NCBI RefSeq assembly: GCF_013408175.1
Contig: NZ_JACBYW010000007.1
Coordinates: 1 to 64,000, forward strand
DNA: 64,000 nucleotides
Origin: Actinopolyspora biskrensis
GTDB lineage: Bacteria; Actinomycetota; Actinomycetes; Mycobacteriales; Pseudonocardiaceae
Direction: 5' to 3'
In this document: piece after piece, positions 10,260 to 32,120 of the stretch
Layout of the letters: each line of letters starts with the position of its first letter
Numbering within the stretch: the stretch's first letter is position 1
The notes under the pieces: model-generated
The model's input: the letters and a program-made list of their open reading frames with translations, nothing else
Told to the model about the DNA's origin: nothing
The model's database searches: none
Made by a program: the position numbers and the translations under genes

Positions 10260-10661
10260 GTGAGGGTGACCACGGGCAGGACTTCTTCGGCACACCAGCA
10301 GCGCGCTCCGCGGCGCAAGCGCGTGGTGCTGGCCGATCGGCGCGGTTCGCGCGACGTTCCGCGCACGATCATCGATCTCGAGAACCAGAGCAGCATGGGC
10401 GAGGCGATGATCCGGAACCTGGTTCGTGCCCAGCTGCGCTCCTCGCTGTGGCTGGCCGCGATCAGCGCGGCGTTCCTGGGCGCGCTGCCCGTGCTGCTGC
10501 GCTACGTCCCCGTCCTGTCCGAGATCCGGCTGTTCGGCATTCCGCTGCCCTGGTTCCTCCTGGGGGTGCTGCCGTTCCCGTTCATCCTGCTGATCGGGTA
10601 CATCGGCACGCGCAAGGCCGAACAGCACGAGCGTGAGTTCATGGACATGGTGGACCGGTGA
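10260..10661 (+). CDS. DUF485-like small membrane protein, symporter partner
   Basis: 133 aa (GTG 10260; GTG 10266 is also possible). A basic, disordered N-terminus of about 45 residues leads to two membrane helices (LWLAAISAAFLGALPVLLRY and PWFLLGVLPFPFILLIGYIG) and a short charged tail (RKAEQHEREFMDMVDR). This two-helix plan matches the small DUF485-type subunit usually encoded just before ActP-like symporters. Its stop overlaps the symporter start (GTGA), so the two are translationally coupled. The role is probably as an accessory subunit or stabiliser of the symporter; this is inference. Confidence 0.75.
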   Translation: MRVTTGRTSSAHQQRAPRRKRVVLADRRGSRDVPRTIIDLENQSSMGEAMIRNLVRAQLRSSLWLAAISAAFLGALPVLLRYVPVLSEIRLFGIPLPWFLLGVLPFPFILLIGYIGTRKAEQHEREFMDMVDR

Positions 10662-28317: not shown

Positions 28318-29765
28318 TCACCGCTGTCGACATCGGAACTTCGCTCACCAAGGCCGCCGCCTTCGACGACGGTGGCCGGGTGCTGGCCGAGGCCAGCAGG
28401 CACTCCCACCTGGAGCACTACCCGGACGGGCGGGTCGAGCAGGACCTCGACGACGTCGTGTCCACGGTCGCCGCCGTGGTCCGCGAGGTGGTGGAGCGCA
28501 CCGGCACGCGTCCGCGCGCCGTCGCCCTCACCGGGCAGGGGGACGGGCTGTGGCTGCGGGACGCCCGGGGTAGGCCGGTTCGCAGCCCGATCTCGTGGAT
28601 GGACGGCCGTGCGGCGCCGGTCGTGCGGCAGTGGCAGCGCGACGGGGTCAGCAGGAGGGTCTACGAACGCACCGGCAACGGGCTCTTCCCGGGGGCCCAC
28701 GGGCCGCTGCTGGCCCACCTCGCCGATCACGAGCCGGAGTCGCTGCGCGCAGCCGATGTGGCGGGCTACTGCGTCGATTCCGTGCTGCACGTGCTGACCG
28801 GGGAGATCAGCGTCGACGCCTCGGACGCCTCGGTCCCGTTCCTGGACGCGGACACGCGCTGCTACGACGAGGAGGCGCTCGAGGCCTGCGGGCTGGCCGA
28901 GTACGAGCACCTGCTGCCGAAACCGGCCAGACCGCGTCAGATCTTCGAACTCGACGCCAACGGGGCCGAACTGCTCGGGCTGCCCGCCGGGACACCGGTC
29001 ACGGCCGGACCATTCGACCTGCCCGCCTGCGCGGTCGGGGGTGGGCTGAACGAGTTCGGCGACGGGCTGCTGACCGTGGGCACCACGCTGGCCTGCCAGG
29101 TGCTGACGGAGGTGGGCGACCGGCACCGGCAGGAGGAGCCCTCCGGGATGTGGCTGTGCACCCCCGAGGAGAACCAGCTGCTGCACGGCATGCCCGCCAT
29201 GGTGGGCACGGCCAGCCTGGACTGGGTGCTGGAACTGCTCGGGCTGGGCATCGACGATCTGGGCGCGCAGCTGGAGGCCAGTCCACCCGGGGCCAACGAC
29301 GTCTCGGCGCTGCCGTTCCTGGCGCCCGGCGGTGAGCGCTCCCCGTTCGTGGATCCCGGGGCCAGCGGTCAGCTGAGCGGGGTGCGGATCGGGACCACGC
29401 GCGCCGACGTGGTGCGGGCGGTCTGCGAGAGCGTCGCCTACGCCGCGCGGCACTGCTTCGAGGCGGCCGGTCTGGACGGCAGGCTGGTGGCCTGCGGTGG
29501 GGGGACGCGTTCGCACCCGTGGGCGCAGGTGTTCGCGGACGTGCTGGGGCAGCCGCTGCACCTGCCGGACGACCCGGGCATGGGAGCCAGGGGCGCGGCG
29601 GTCACGGCGGCACGGGCCCTGGGTGATCCGGTGGACTCGGGCGAGTGGACGCTCCCGACGCGGGAGGTGACCCCGAACCCGGAGGTGCGGCAGCGCTACG
29701 AGGACGGCTACCGTCGCTACCGCCAGACCCTGGCGAGCATGCGCGAGCTGTGGCGGACGGGCTGA
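28314..29765 (+). CDS. FGGY-family carbohydrate kinase (second)
   Basis: 483 aa, start ATG 28314 inside the preceding stop. FGGY motifs: ITAVDIGTSLTKAAAFDDGG, VALTGQGDGLWLRD, PISWMDGRAAPVVRQWQRD, GPFDLPACAVGGGLNEFGDG, LTVGTTLACQVLTE, LAPGGERSPFVDP and VACGGGTRSHPWAQVFADVL. It resembles xylulokinase/erythritol-kinase members and differs clearly from the kinase at 19261, so the two probably handle different substrates or steps. It closes the plus-strand arm of the cluster. Confidence 0.85.
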   Translation: MITAVDIGTSLTKAAAFDDGGRVLAEASRHSHLEHYPDGRVEQDLDDVVSTVAAVVREVVERTGTRPRAVALTGQGDGLWLRDARGRPVRSPISWMDGRAAPVVRQWQRDGVSRRVYERTGNGLFPGAHGPLLAHLADHEPESLRAADVAGYCVDSVLHVLTGEISVDASDASVPFLDADTRCYDEEALEACGLAEYEHLLPKPARPRQIFELDANGAELLGLPAGTPVTAGPFDLPACAVGGGLNEFGDGLLTVGTTLACQVLTEVGDRHRQEEPSGMWLCTPEENQLLHGMPAMVGTASLDWVLELLGLGIDDLGAQLEASPPGANDVSALPFLAPGGERSPFVDPGASGQLSGVRIGTTRADVVRAVCESVAYAARHCFEAAGLDGRLVACGGGTRSHPWAQVFADVLGQPLHLPDDPGMGARGAAVTAARALGDPVDSGEWTLPTREVTPNPEVRQRYEDGYRRYRQTLASMRELWRTG

Positions 29766-30323
29766 GCGAGGTTCCTCGGCGCGGTTCGCGTTGGACGACT
29801 GCCGAGAACGGGGACGTTTCGCGCGAAACTGTCGCTCTGGCACCGCTCCGGAAAGAACGCTTCGCGCGAAACGCCGGAACTCGGTGGTGCGGCGGTTCGG
29901 CTCGGTCGTGGGGCACGGTCGGCGCGGCCGTGGAGCCGTAGCGGCCCGCCGCGGTGAACGGGCTCGCGGCCGGAAGTGTCGGTATCCCTCGTCCGGGCAG
30001 GCCGCGAGCCCCCTCCGGCAGCGTGCTCCCGGGCGGCCCTGATCGCGGGTGCGTCCCGACGCTCTCCGCGTTCCCGGATCCACGCCCGGTGACGGGCCCT
30101 CGGAATTCTCGACAATTCTTCCTCCTCTTGGCCCGCTGTCTGTTTCGGGAATTGTTTGTCGGCGAATATTTTCTGTTTCTTTCGTGTTCGCCTTTCTGCT
30201 CCGGAAGCGTGCTTTCCTGTCGCCTCGAGGGCTGATTCCGCGTTCTTCCGTTGTGTTCTCGGTGCGTGTGCTGGCGTAATTGCCCACGCACCGCAGGAAC
30301 TCGCGGGAAAGGAGGTGAGCACG
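29766..30323. other. 558-bp region before the peptide gene
   Basis: No gene was seen apart from shadows. The left part holds the paired palindromes at 29816-29872. The stretch 30090-30290 is markedly AT-richer than the genome around it (TTCGGGAATTGTTTGTCGGC, GAATATTTTCTGTTTC) and should contain the promoter of the peptide gene. Confidence 0.5.
29816..29872. promoter_or_regulatory. Pair of parS-like palindromes, 43 bp apart (locus 1)
   Basis: GTTTCGCGCGAAAC (29816-29829) is a perfect palindrome. GCTTCGCGCGAAAC (29859-29872) has one change. Both resemble parS, GTTTCACGTGAAAC. The same pair with the same 43-bp spacing occurs at 42462-42518. Confidence 0.6.
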
Positions 30324-30410
30324 ATGCGCGTCATCACGATCCAGGCCGCTCCCGTGGTCCGCAGCGACCGGAAGAACAAGCCGTTCTTCTGGATATGGCA
30401 CCACTCCTGA
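30324..30410 (+). CDS. 28-aa peptide, candidate RiPP precursor
   Basis: ATG 30324 lies seven bases after AAAGGAGGT, a near-perfect ribosome site, and the frame stops with TGA at 30408-30410. The peptide begins MRVITIQAAP, has a basic middle (RSDRKNK) and ends in a strongly aromatic octamer FFWIWHHS with two Trp, two Phe and two His. A leader-plus-aromatic-core layout like this is seen in small cross-linked RiPPs. A hairpin follows, then a SagB-type dehydrogenase gene 93 bp away. It is too short for usual gene finders. That it is translated is very likely; that it is modified is inference. Confidence 0.72.
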   Translation: MRVITIQAAPVVRSDRKNKPFFWIWHHS

Positions 30411-30421
30411 TGACGGATGAA

Positions 30422-30457
30422 CGTCGCGGGGCGGATCGCTCGGTCCGCCCCGCGACG
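30422..30457 (+). terminator. Strong hairpin between peptide and SagB genes (attenuator-like)
   Basis: CGTCGCGGGGCGGA (30422-30435) pairs perfectly over 14 bp with TCCGCCCCGCGACG (30444-30457), with an eight-base loop. There is no U-run. Such stem-loops after a precursor gene give partial termination or mRNA protection, so that more precursor than enzyme is made. Confidence 0.7.
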
Positions 30458-30503
30458 AATGCCGATGACTCCGCGATCGATTCCGGAACCTCTTGGAGCA
30501 CGA

Positions 30504-31619
30504 ATGCGCCTGCGCCGTCGTCACGGACTGGTCTGCTACTGGTACGACGGGTCCTTCGTCGTCCACCCCTACCCGGGTGGTGACCCACTCGCCCTTCATC
30601 CGGCCGTGGCCGAGATCCTCTCCGCCTTCTCGGAGTGGACCGATCCCGCGGAAGCGGCCGAGAAGCTGAATCACCTTTCCCCGGGGACCGTGGAGCAGGC
30701 GGTGGGGGAATTACGCGGGGCCGGGCTGCTGCTGGCCGCCGACGCTCCCGAGGTGGCGGCCGACGAGCGGTTCGAGCGACAGTGGTCGACCTGGAGTCCG
30801 GAGGCCGCCTTCTTCCACTACGCCACCCAGGACGTCAAGTACCCCGAGACGGAGCACGAGGGGGAGTCCGCTGCGGGGCGGGAGTCGCAGGCCCCTTTCG
30901 TGCTGTTCACCAGTTATCCGCGGGCCGATCGGATCCTGTTGCCCCGACCGCTGTCCACGGAGCTGCGCGCCCCTTACGAGCAGGTGCTTCTCGCGCGGCA
31001 CACCTGCCGGGACTACACGCGGGACCCGGTTCCGCTGCCCGTGCTGAGCACGTTGCTGGCCACGGCGTTCGCCCCCGTGGACTTCATCGACTGCGGGCGG
31101 GGTGCGCTGTTCCGCCGCACGAGCCCCGCGGGCGGGGCGCGGCAGGAGCTGGACGCCTACGTGGCCGTCCGGAACGTGACCGGGGTCGAGCCGGGGGTGT
31201 ACCACTACAACCTGCGGGAGCACTCCCTGGAACTGCTCTCCGAGGGGTTCTCCTCCGCGGACGCGACCCGCTTCTGCGCGGACCAGGAGTGGGCGGGTGG
31301 CGCGGCCTTCCTGGTGGTGCTCGGTCTAGTGGTGGACCGGCTGCTCAGCAAGTACCCCACACCACGTTCCTACCGCGTGAGCCTGCTCAACGCGGGACAC
31401 CTCGGGCAGACCTTCGCGTTGACCGCCACCGCGCTGGGGCTCGGACCCGCGCAGACGGGCGCTTTCCACGACTCGCAGCTCGCCGAGCGGCTGGGGCTGG
31501 ACAACATCGGCAGGACCCCGCTCTACGTCCTCGCGGCGGGGCATCCGGCCGCCGAGCAGCCCGAGGCACCGCCTGCCGCCGGGCTGTCGACGTTCCGGGA
31601 GACGGCGTTGGAGGGGTGA
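30504..31619 (+). CDS. SagB-type FMN-dependent dehydrogenase (nitroreductase fold)
   Basis: 371 aa from ATG 30504 (TTGGAGCACGA upstream; the frame opens earlier at 30417 without a site). Residues 1-95 look like a small winged-helix/PqqD-type peptide-binding domain (HPAVAEILSAFSEWTDPAEA, AVGELRGAGLLLAADAP). The C-terminal part is the nitroreductase-like domain of SagB/ThcOx: LLARHTCRDYTRDPVPLPVL, VTGVEPGVYHYNLREHSLEL, YRVSLLNAGHLGQTFALTAT. SagB enzymes oxidise azolines to azoles in peptides, but no cyclodehydratase (YcaO) gene is present and the peptide has no Cys and only two Ser, so a different oxidation is likely. The upstream 28-aa peptide is the probable substrate. Confidence 0.82.
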   Translation: MRLRRRHGLVCYWYDGSFVVHPYPGGDPLALHPAVAEILSAFSEWTDPAEAAEKLNHLSPGTVEQAVGELRGAGLLLAADAPEVAADERFERQWSTWSPEAAFFHYATQDVKYPETEHEGESAAGRESQAPFVLFTSYPRADRILLPRPLSTELRAPYEQVLLARHTCRDYTRDPVPLPVLSTLLATAFAPVDFIDCGRGALFRRTSPAGGARQELDAYVAVRNVTGVEPGVYHYNLREHSLELLSEGFSSADATRFCADQEWAGGAAFLVVLGLVVDRLLSKYPTPRSYRVSLLNAGHLGQTFALTATALGLGPAQTGAFHDSQLAERLGLDNIGRTPLYVLAAGHPAAEQPEAPPAAGLSTFRETALEG

Positions 31620-31636
31620 CGATTTCCAGAGGGGTT

Positions 31637-31658
31637 CCCAGTTTTGCCTATAACTGGG
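31637..31658. repeat. 20-bp palindromic repeat, copy 3
   Basis: CCCAGTTTTGCCTATAACTG then GG, one mismatch in the arms. It lies between the convergent SagB and DoxX genes. Confidence 0.75.
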
Positions 31659-31664
31659 AGTTGT

Positions 31665-32120
31665 TCACACCCCCACGCTCTCGCCGGTGCGCTCCCGGCC
31701 GGAGCGGGAGCCGGAGCTGCTCAGCGCCCTGTCCAGCGCGAACCTTCCGCCGTTGAATCCGAGGGCCAGGGCGATGACCGCGAGCACGAGCACGTACTCG
31801 TAACCACCGCCGGAGGAGAAGAAGCCCTGGCCGAGGTGGGCGAACACGAGCGCGCCGAGCATGTTCAGCGCCAGCAGCACTCCCGCGACCGGCAGGGCGA
31901 GCCCGAGCAGGAGCGCGGCTCCGCCCAGGGTCTCGATCAGCGCGGCCGCCCAGGCCGCGAGCCCGGGGGCGGGGATGCCCATTCCGGCGAACGAGTCGGC
32001 CGTCCCGCTGATCCCCCACTGGGTGAACTTCTGCATGCCGTGGGCGATGAACACGATCCCGGCAACCAGTCTGGCCAGCAGCAGTGCCAGGTCGCGGACC
32101 TGGGGTGGCAGTTGTGGCAT
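31665..32120 (-). CDS. DoxX-family membrane protein
   Basis: 151 aa from ATG 32120 (AGGAGCAGTC upstream). Four membrane helices: LALLLARLVAGIVFIAHGMQ, LAAWAAALIETLGGAALLLG, AGVLLALNMLGALVFAHLGQ and VLVLAVIALALGFNGGRFAL. The HGMQKF motif after helix 1 and the E in helix 2 are DoxX hallmarks. A short charged tail ends the protein. DoxX proteins take part in oxidative or thiol stress responses, often with quinone-reactive partners. The divergent MarR gene and its two operators show that the pair is probably co-regulated. Confidence 0.87.
   Translation of the reverse strand: MPQLPPQVRDLALLLARLVAGIVFIAHGMQKFTQWGISGTADSFAGMGIPAPGLAAWAAALIETLGGAALLLGLALPVAGVLLALNMLGALVFAHLGQGFFSSGGGYEYVLVLAVIALALGFNGGRFALDRALSSSGSRSGRERTGESVGV

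Follow-up and report, generated by a model that had tools for sequence, protein, structure and literature searches.

A 28-codon open reading frame in the window, the 64,000-nucleotide stretch of Actinopolyspora biskrensis DNA analyzed here (genome G000, 4.95 Mb, contig C7), is almost certainly, on the strength of sequence comparison, a real RiPP precursor gene paired with the gene of an RRE-SagB-type FMN dehydrogenase, P0002; the pair very probably makes a chemically modified, aromatic-rich small peptide without the usual partner enzyme. SagB/ThcOx/McbC azoline dehydrogenases act after a YcaO cyclodehydratase on Cys, Ser or Thr, and SagB-type dehydrogenases are commonly interpreted as enzymes of the second step in azole formation; the clade of P0002 has its own precursor, and YcaO is dispensable to it. 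The component parts are known and their combination is new; no description of this precursor family was found in the open-access papers searched. The locus comprises the following features.

30309..30323, + strand: ribosome-binding site and spacer of the precursor gene, AAGGAGGTGAGCACG and then ATG, assigned from the sequence
30324-30410, + strand: precursor ORF, 28 codons and stop, encoding MRVITIQAAPVVRSDRKNKPFFWIWHHS
30324..30371, + strand: leader of the precursor, residues 1-16, MRVITIQAAPVVRSDR, assigned from conservation and pN/pS
30372..30410, + strand: variable tail and putative core, residues 17-28, KNKPFFWIWHHS, with the stop codon, assigned from the distribution of W
30422-30457, + strand: hairpin between the precursor and enzyme genes, 16 pairs with one G-U, loop of 4
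30504-31619, + strand: RRE-SagB-type FMN dehydrogenase P0002, 371 aa, assigned from Pfam, NCBIfam, alignments and predicted folds
30504..30737, + strand: predicted N-terminal RRE fold, residues 1-78, three strands then three helices (AlphaFold2, VIA-align)
30975..31553, + strand: nitroreductase-fold FMN domain, approximately residues 158-350
31350..31355, + strand: Lys283-Tyr284, aligned with the KY of ThcOx and McbC

The first-pass annotation had described the 28-codon gene with its strong ribosome site, the hairpin and a SagB-type dehydrogenase, all of which are borne out by the sequence, Pfam and NCBIfam. P0002 scores 74.3 bits with Pfam Nitroreductase (cut-off 23.5), the one domain that Pfam gives, with no MNIO fusion found; it also passes the curated cut-off of NCBIfam SagB TIGR03605 (106.1 bits against 78.4). 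Its best NCBIfam score is with TIGR04511, a putative peptide maturation dehydrogenase, at 150.1 bits, which lies under that model's 240-bit cut-off. An in-frame ATG at 30417 was considered as the enzyme start (400 aa) and rejected in favor of 30504, because the hairpin would then lie inside the gene and relatives align from MRLRR at 30504. The RRE part of the protein is predicted with a pLDDT of 94.3 (AlphaFold2), and by VIA-align the predicted fold matches the structures of MccB, NisB, lasso B1, the PbtF RRE and ThcOx, some of them leader-bound; the earlier suggestion of an RRE-type N-terminus is thus supported at the level of the predicted fold. The remainder of P0002 is similar to ThcOx, the cyanobactin oxidase, and retains the Lys-Tyr motif, which is conserved at 90% or more (25 sequences). 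For dehydrogenase-fused RREs of known RiPP clusters, one account (PMC7470986) describes the RRE as possibly vestigial; the P0002 clade argues that some of them are in use. In genome G002 neither the peptide nor the first 94-96 enzyme residues, which include the RRE part, are present, probably through a single deletion.

The search for homologues covered 61 related genomes (G000 included) and a genome collection (16 loci), together with 390 genomes of the family, 394 of the class, 392 of Streptomyces and 151 of another family. At 26 loci with enzymes 49-100% identical to P0002, a short ORF ends 62-121 nt upstream; these ORFs encode 24 distinct peptides, and the ribosome site is clear in most. 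The P0002 clade has 27 tips in a tree of 71 enzymes (support 0.926), and the peptide is present upstream in 26 of them, from Actinopolyspora to Streptomyces, with L121 (MRKMTVNVKPVVTEEKYLVLHSA) counted in; the one tip without it is L119 of G1134. Rows for a genome already present from another collection (L032-L036, L039) were dropped, and L007 (truncated) and L092 (a fragment) were left out. L115 has the peptide and was kept out of the tree because translation from its estimated start ends after 4 aa (one TGA lies inside the frame); the L116 enzyme diverges after about residue 318, and its frame may be broken. Outside the clade, no obvious short ORF was seen at L017/L039, L127, L129 and L131.

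Twenty of the family peptides, scanned against Pfam and NCBIfam, are unknown to both. A 20-peptide profile searched against the 390 family genomes, with 20 candidates scored per genome, gives 14 matches at E 1.8e-6 or better, every one of which sits just upstream of a P0002-type enzyme; the profile already contained these 14 or their exact equals, and the informative part is therefore the absence of further strong matches. The next-best match (E 1.1e-4 in G089) falls in an unrelated frame; matches at 0.1 occur in 123 of the 390 genomes, and of those weaker than 1.8e-6 three were inspected and the rest taken as chance. With the query and all peptides of at least 50% identity to it removed, the held-out HMM still finds the window peptide (E 2.3e-6) and recovers 14 of the 24 distinct peptides at E 1.2e-4 or better; 10 are not recovered, and the one strong background match of this test is a second precursor in G966. 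At L146 (approximately 10557-10625, + strand) a second, divergent precursor copy, MKKIELAAKPVQGRSIKVHYQR, precedes what appears by eye to be a longer operon (acetyltransferase, ATP-grasp, aminotransferase).

The family peptides divide into a leader, consensus MRxIxxxARPVVRx[D/E]R, and a variable tail with abundant W, F, Y and H. Across the 24 distinct peptides, hydrophobic residues occupy leader positions 4 and 6 throughout (24/24), and R2 and R16 are each found in 22, R13 in 21, and D or E at position 15 in 21. With the tail taken from residue 17, there is no W among the 360 leader residues, against 36 among the 295 tail residues; W occurs in 18 of the 24 tails, and all 24 contain W, F, Y or H, with clustered aromatics, often W-x-W, in many. 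Cys is absent from 23 of 24 tails, and Cys, Ser and Thr are all absent from 5 of 24 when the cut is placed after residue 16 (3 of 26 by an alternative leader/tail cut); the tail of the window peptide has a single Ser, at its C-terminus. An encoded precursor with a conserved leader and a variable core is therefore found beside a modifying enzyme, the arrangement by which a RiPP is recognized.

The first-pass annotation had let its reading depend on conservation of the frame beside related SagB genes and on a coding pattern of substitution. The frame is conserved with its leader/tail split, and the reading stands on that point; the substitution pattern agrees in part. For G000, G005 and G001, pN is 0.00-0.03 and pS 0.08-0.16 in the leader, against pN 0.13-0.34 and pS 0.00-0.09 in the tail, all on small numbers; the L115/L116 pair likewise combines a slow leader with a fast tail. 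The faster tail was not found in the pairs L001/L005, L113/L120 and L117/L118, and L008, L073 and L074 have one peptide in common, so that their three pairs are identical in this comparison.

The hairpin has 14 uninterrupted Watson-Crick pairs, as had been read from the sequence, and 16 when the G-U and the last C-G are counted. The 111-nt stretch that contains it folds at -51.1 kcal/mol (z -3.63; equalled by 1 of 200 shuffles). A stem of at least 11 bp is present in the precursor-enzyme gap at 20 of 26 loci, with differing sequences, and 6 of 26 are without one by the same scan; the hairpin belongs to the cassette. Because no terminator-like site (a hairpin with a T run) was found in 29760-31700, the hairpin is considered to be an mRNA processing or stability element, which would set the precursor above the enzyme.

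The upstream neighbors of the pair appear to form a sugar-catabolism operon (HAD, Dak, RpiB, 2-hydroxyacid dehydrogenase, FGGY kinase) and the downstream neighbors are DoxX and MarR. A Pfam scan of 24 ORFs from 20.9-41.4 kb, the dehydrogenase included and several of them overlapping or probably non-genes, left 12 without a match and found no YcaO, protease or transporter among the other 12, in keeping with the earlier statement that none is nearby. Neighbor clustering over 34 loci, 21 of them of the clade (simple gene caller, proteins of at least 70 aa), gives no protein family besides the enzyme in more than six of the 21; the widest are MarR and an HTH/DUF5753 regulator, each in six and mostly by Actinopolyspora synteny, while ABC ATPases, a P450 and a few others each recur in two to four. 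In four of five enzyme-less Actinopolyspora (G003, G004, G007, G009) the site is empty and the kinase adjoins DoxX, with 0.36-0.39 kb between the kinase and DoxX matches; in the fifth, G006, the kinase lies outside the stretch compared. As no other neighbor gene recurs at more than a handful of loci and four of the five congeners have empty sites, precursor and enzyme are, by these comparisons, a compact, repeatedly inherited two-gene cassette.

YcaO (PF02624) is absent from 10 of 24 genomes that carry the pair (6 of 16 in one genome set, and 4 of the 8 with the pair in a second set of 22), and from 9 of 22 when G1168 and G1130, whose enzyme frames at L115 and L116 look disturbed, are removed; it is present somewhere in 14 of 24, G000 included. 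E. coli also encodes a YcaO. The only YcaO match of G000 is on contig C1, while the window is on C7; at C1 (683376-686773) YcaO and a SagB-like match with one stop inside lie approximately 2 kb apart and form a separate locus, perhaps an ordinary azole RiPP locus. One clade member, that of G1134 (L119/L138, 50-51% identity), lies directly behind a YcaO gene (L138:10830-12089, - strand); HH replaces KY in this enzyme, and no short ORF of the precursor family was found at the locus. The clade can therefore occur with YcaO; since the G1134 enzyme is nested within the clade in the tree, we interpret it as a member whose use changed later. With the peptide upstream in nearly the whole clade and YcaO missing from 10 of the 24 genomes that have the pair, the comparisons support the earlier view of a precursor/enzyme RiPP pair that does not need a cyclodehydratase; azoles appear an unlikely product because of the absence of YcaO in 10 of 24 genomes and of Cys in nearly all tails.

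It is proposed that the two-gene RiPP cassette carries out leader-guided α,β-dehydrogenation of aromatic tail residues; as a whole this proposal is considered moderately likely. Azoline to azole oxidation and the reactions of AlbAB and PflD are all α,β-dehydrogenations, and desaturation of the tail is proposed for that reason. Leader residues 1-16 would form a short strand paired with the winged-helix RRE, thereby placing the tail KNKPFFWIWHHS above the FMN of the SagB/ThcOx-type active site; Lys283-Tyr284 would accept a proton and FMN a hydride. The resulting Cα/Cβ desaturation would give dehydro-Trp, -Phe, -Tyr or -His with a loss of 2 Da per residue, and FMN would be reoxidized by O2. A host protease and transporter may finish and export the product; neither a protease nor an exporter was seen beside the window pair. 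Comparison supports the pairing of precursor and enzyme, the division of the peptide into leader and tail, the RRE fold, the Lys-Tyr oxidase fold and the dispensability of YcaO. Caution on aromatic desaturation is nonetheless called for by two points: in the sections of PMC11760959 available, NdasCDO is reportedly poor with large side chains such as Trp, and sister-clade tails such as LLSNHPA are non-aromatic in lacking W, F and Y, with His present. An aromatic target therefore cannot hold for the whole enzyme family.

Desaturation is ranked first among the readings and cross-linking second. In the latter, which is judged unlikely, the same leader-guided flavoenzyme would cross-link or oxidize the aromatic side chains (C-C or C-N bonds; Trp, His, Tyr) to give a macrocycle; mass alone cannot separate the two, as both lose 2 Da. 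The clustering of aromatics in many tails, often as W-x-W, is in line with a cross-link, which was also named by the earlier sequence reading, but no nitroreductase-fold cross-linker was found in the available parts of the literature on PflD and cyclodipeptide oxidases. The tails of L115 and L116 (GGLLYK and SAFNKK types) have one aromatic residue only, a point that counts for little because both enzyme frames look disturbed. A conventional azole RiPP, in which a YcaO encoded elsewhere forms azolines on Ser/Thr for oxidation by the P0002-type enzyme, draws on the similarity of the enzyme to ThcOx/SagB, on the 14 of 24 genomes that do have YcaO and on the G1134 member beside a YcaO gene; it is nevertheless quite improbable given the 10 genomes without a YcaO match, the tails that lack Cys, Ser and Thr altogether, and the SagB-like match that the YcaO of G000 has of its own at approximately 2 kb.

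Peptide-borne residues are substrates of flavoenzymes in pearlin pathways, and by that parallel the peptide could be a scaffold (pearlin-like) or a cofactor precursor (PQQ/mycofactocin-like) to which residues are added or from which they are cut, with the oxidase acting on that moiety; this is also very unlikely, as the loci share no recurrent ligase or other partner and the tails vary greatly among species, unlike those of a cofactor precursor. The FFWIWHH run and hairpin recall the pheL/trpL/hisL attenuators, and a placement of Phe, Trp and His codons before a hairpin would suit an attenuator leader peptide that regulates the dehydrogenase gene and is not a substrate. This is scarcely credible: conservation lies in the N-terminal half of the peptide and not in the codon run, the stretch has no terminator-like site, the enzyme carries a predicted RRE fold, and most sister-clade LLSNH peptides are without a W/F/Y run.

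Precedents for the favored desaturation are found among nitroreductase-fold enzymes. The nitroreductase domain of PflD from the Pseudomonas pfl cluster converts Phe to Z-dehydroPhe in a RiPP, and its authors state, in the portions of PMC12636437 available, that YcaO-less nitroreductases are rare and functionally uncharacterized and that others could form other dehydroamino acids. The likeness to PflD comprises the nitroreductase fold, a cluster described without YcaO and a modified RiPP precursor; by that same partial description, PflD is fused to an MNIO and accompanied by a HEXXH enzyme, a GNAT and transporters, whereas the window enzyme stands alone, is RRE-fused and is accompanied by a 28-aa precursor. 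The earlier proposal that the enzyme acts on the aromatic tail is judged likely; its description as new RiPP chemistry is weakened, because PflD already makes Z-dehydroPhe in a cluster described without YcaO. AlbAB shares the nitroreductase fold and carries out the desaturation of cyclodipeptides; a parallel between it and the Lys-Tyr azoline dehydrogenases is drawn in PMC11055893 (available sections). AlbAB and NdasCDO are described there and in PMC11760959 as two-subunit filaments acting on cyclic dipeptides and not on a ribosomal precursor. In the general Pfam scan of the 24 window ORFs there was no match to a CDOB partner, to a cyclodipeptide synthase or to a P450. Compared with ThcOx/SagB/McbC, pairs of the window type occur without YcaO in 10 of 24 genomes and have aromatic tails.

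The P450 biarylitides and atropopeptides combine a tiny precursor with one oxidative enzyme. The likeness to P450-cross-linked mini-peptides that was suggested earlier holds for this layout and for nothing beyond it, as their enzyme class is unrelated to P0002.

With two small genes, the role of YcaO-less RiPP nitroreductases becomes directly testable; the variable tails would reveal the range of residues open to the enzyme, and a cassette of this size lends itself to library work. A more tentative proposal, which we regard as doubtful, is that of a separate RiPP class: stand-alone RRE-fused nitroreductases would rewrite the aromatics of tiny, fast-diversifying precursors, giving dehydro-Trp/dehydro-His or cross-links, and sister clades would apply enzymes of this type to different tails, those of the LLSNHPA type with FecBCD-type importers perhaps being ribosomal metallophores.

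Sister enzymes with 41-43% identity (L055, L056, L106, L107, L108, L139) have precursors ending in LLSNH(P/F/A)A. A FecB/FecCD/ABC importer lies within 5 kb on the same strand at all six of these loci and an MFS protein at four of six; neither FecB nor FecCD was found at any of 28 clade loci checked, and the products of the LLSNH type are candidate ribosomal metallophores. At L058 (11109-12353) and L111, a peptide of the form MFEIEIVED..TLLNHPTL occurs with SagB and a JmjC_2 protein, assigned by Pfam on L058 only; L111 carries a relative of that protein. A distant SagB group (L132-L137) has a conserved upstream peptide of approximately 47 aa with ..EAAAFRAHKSDYI..RPLS, and at L124 and L126 two identical or near-identical precursors, MDIVIIEDREVVAHHPSL, stand in tandem before one SagB.
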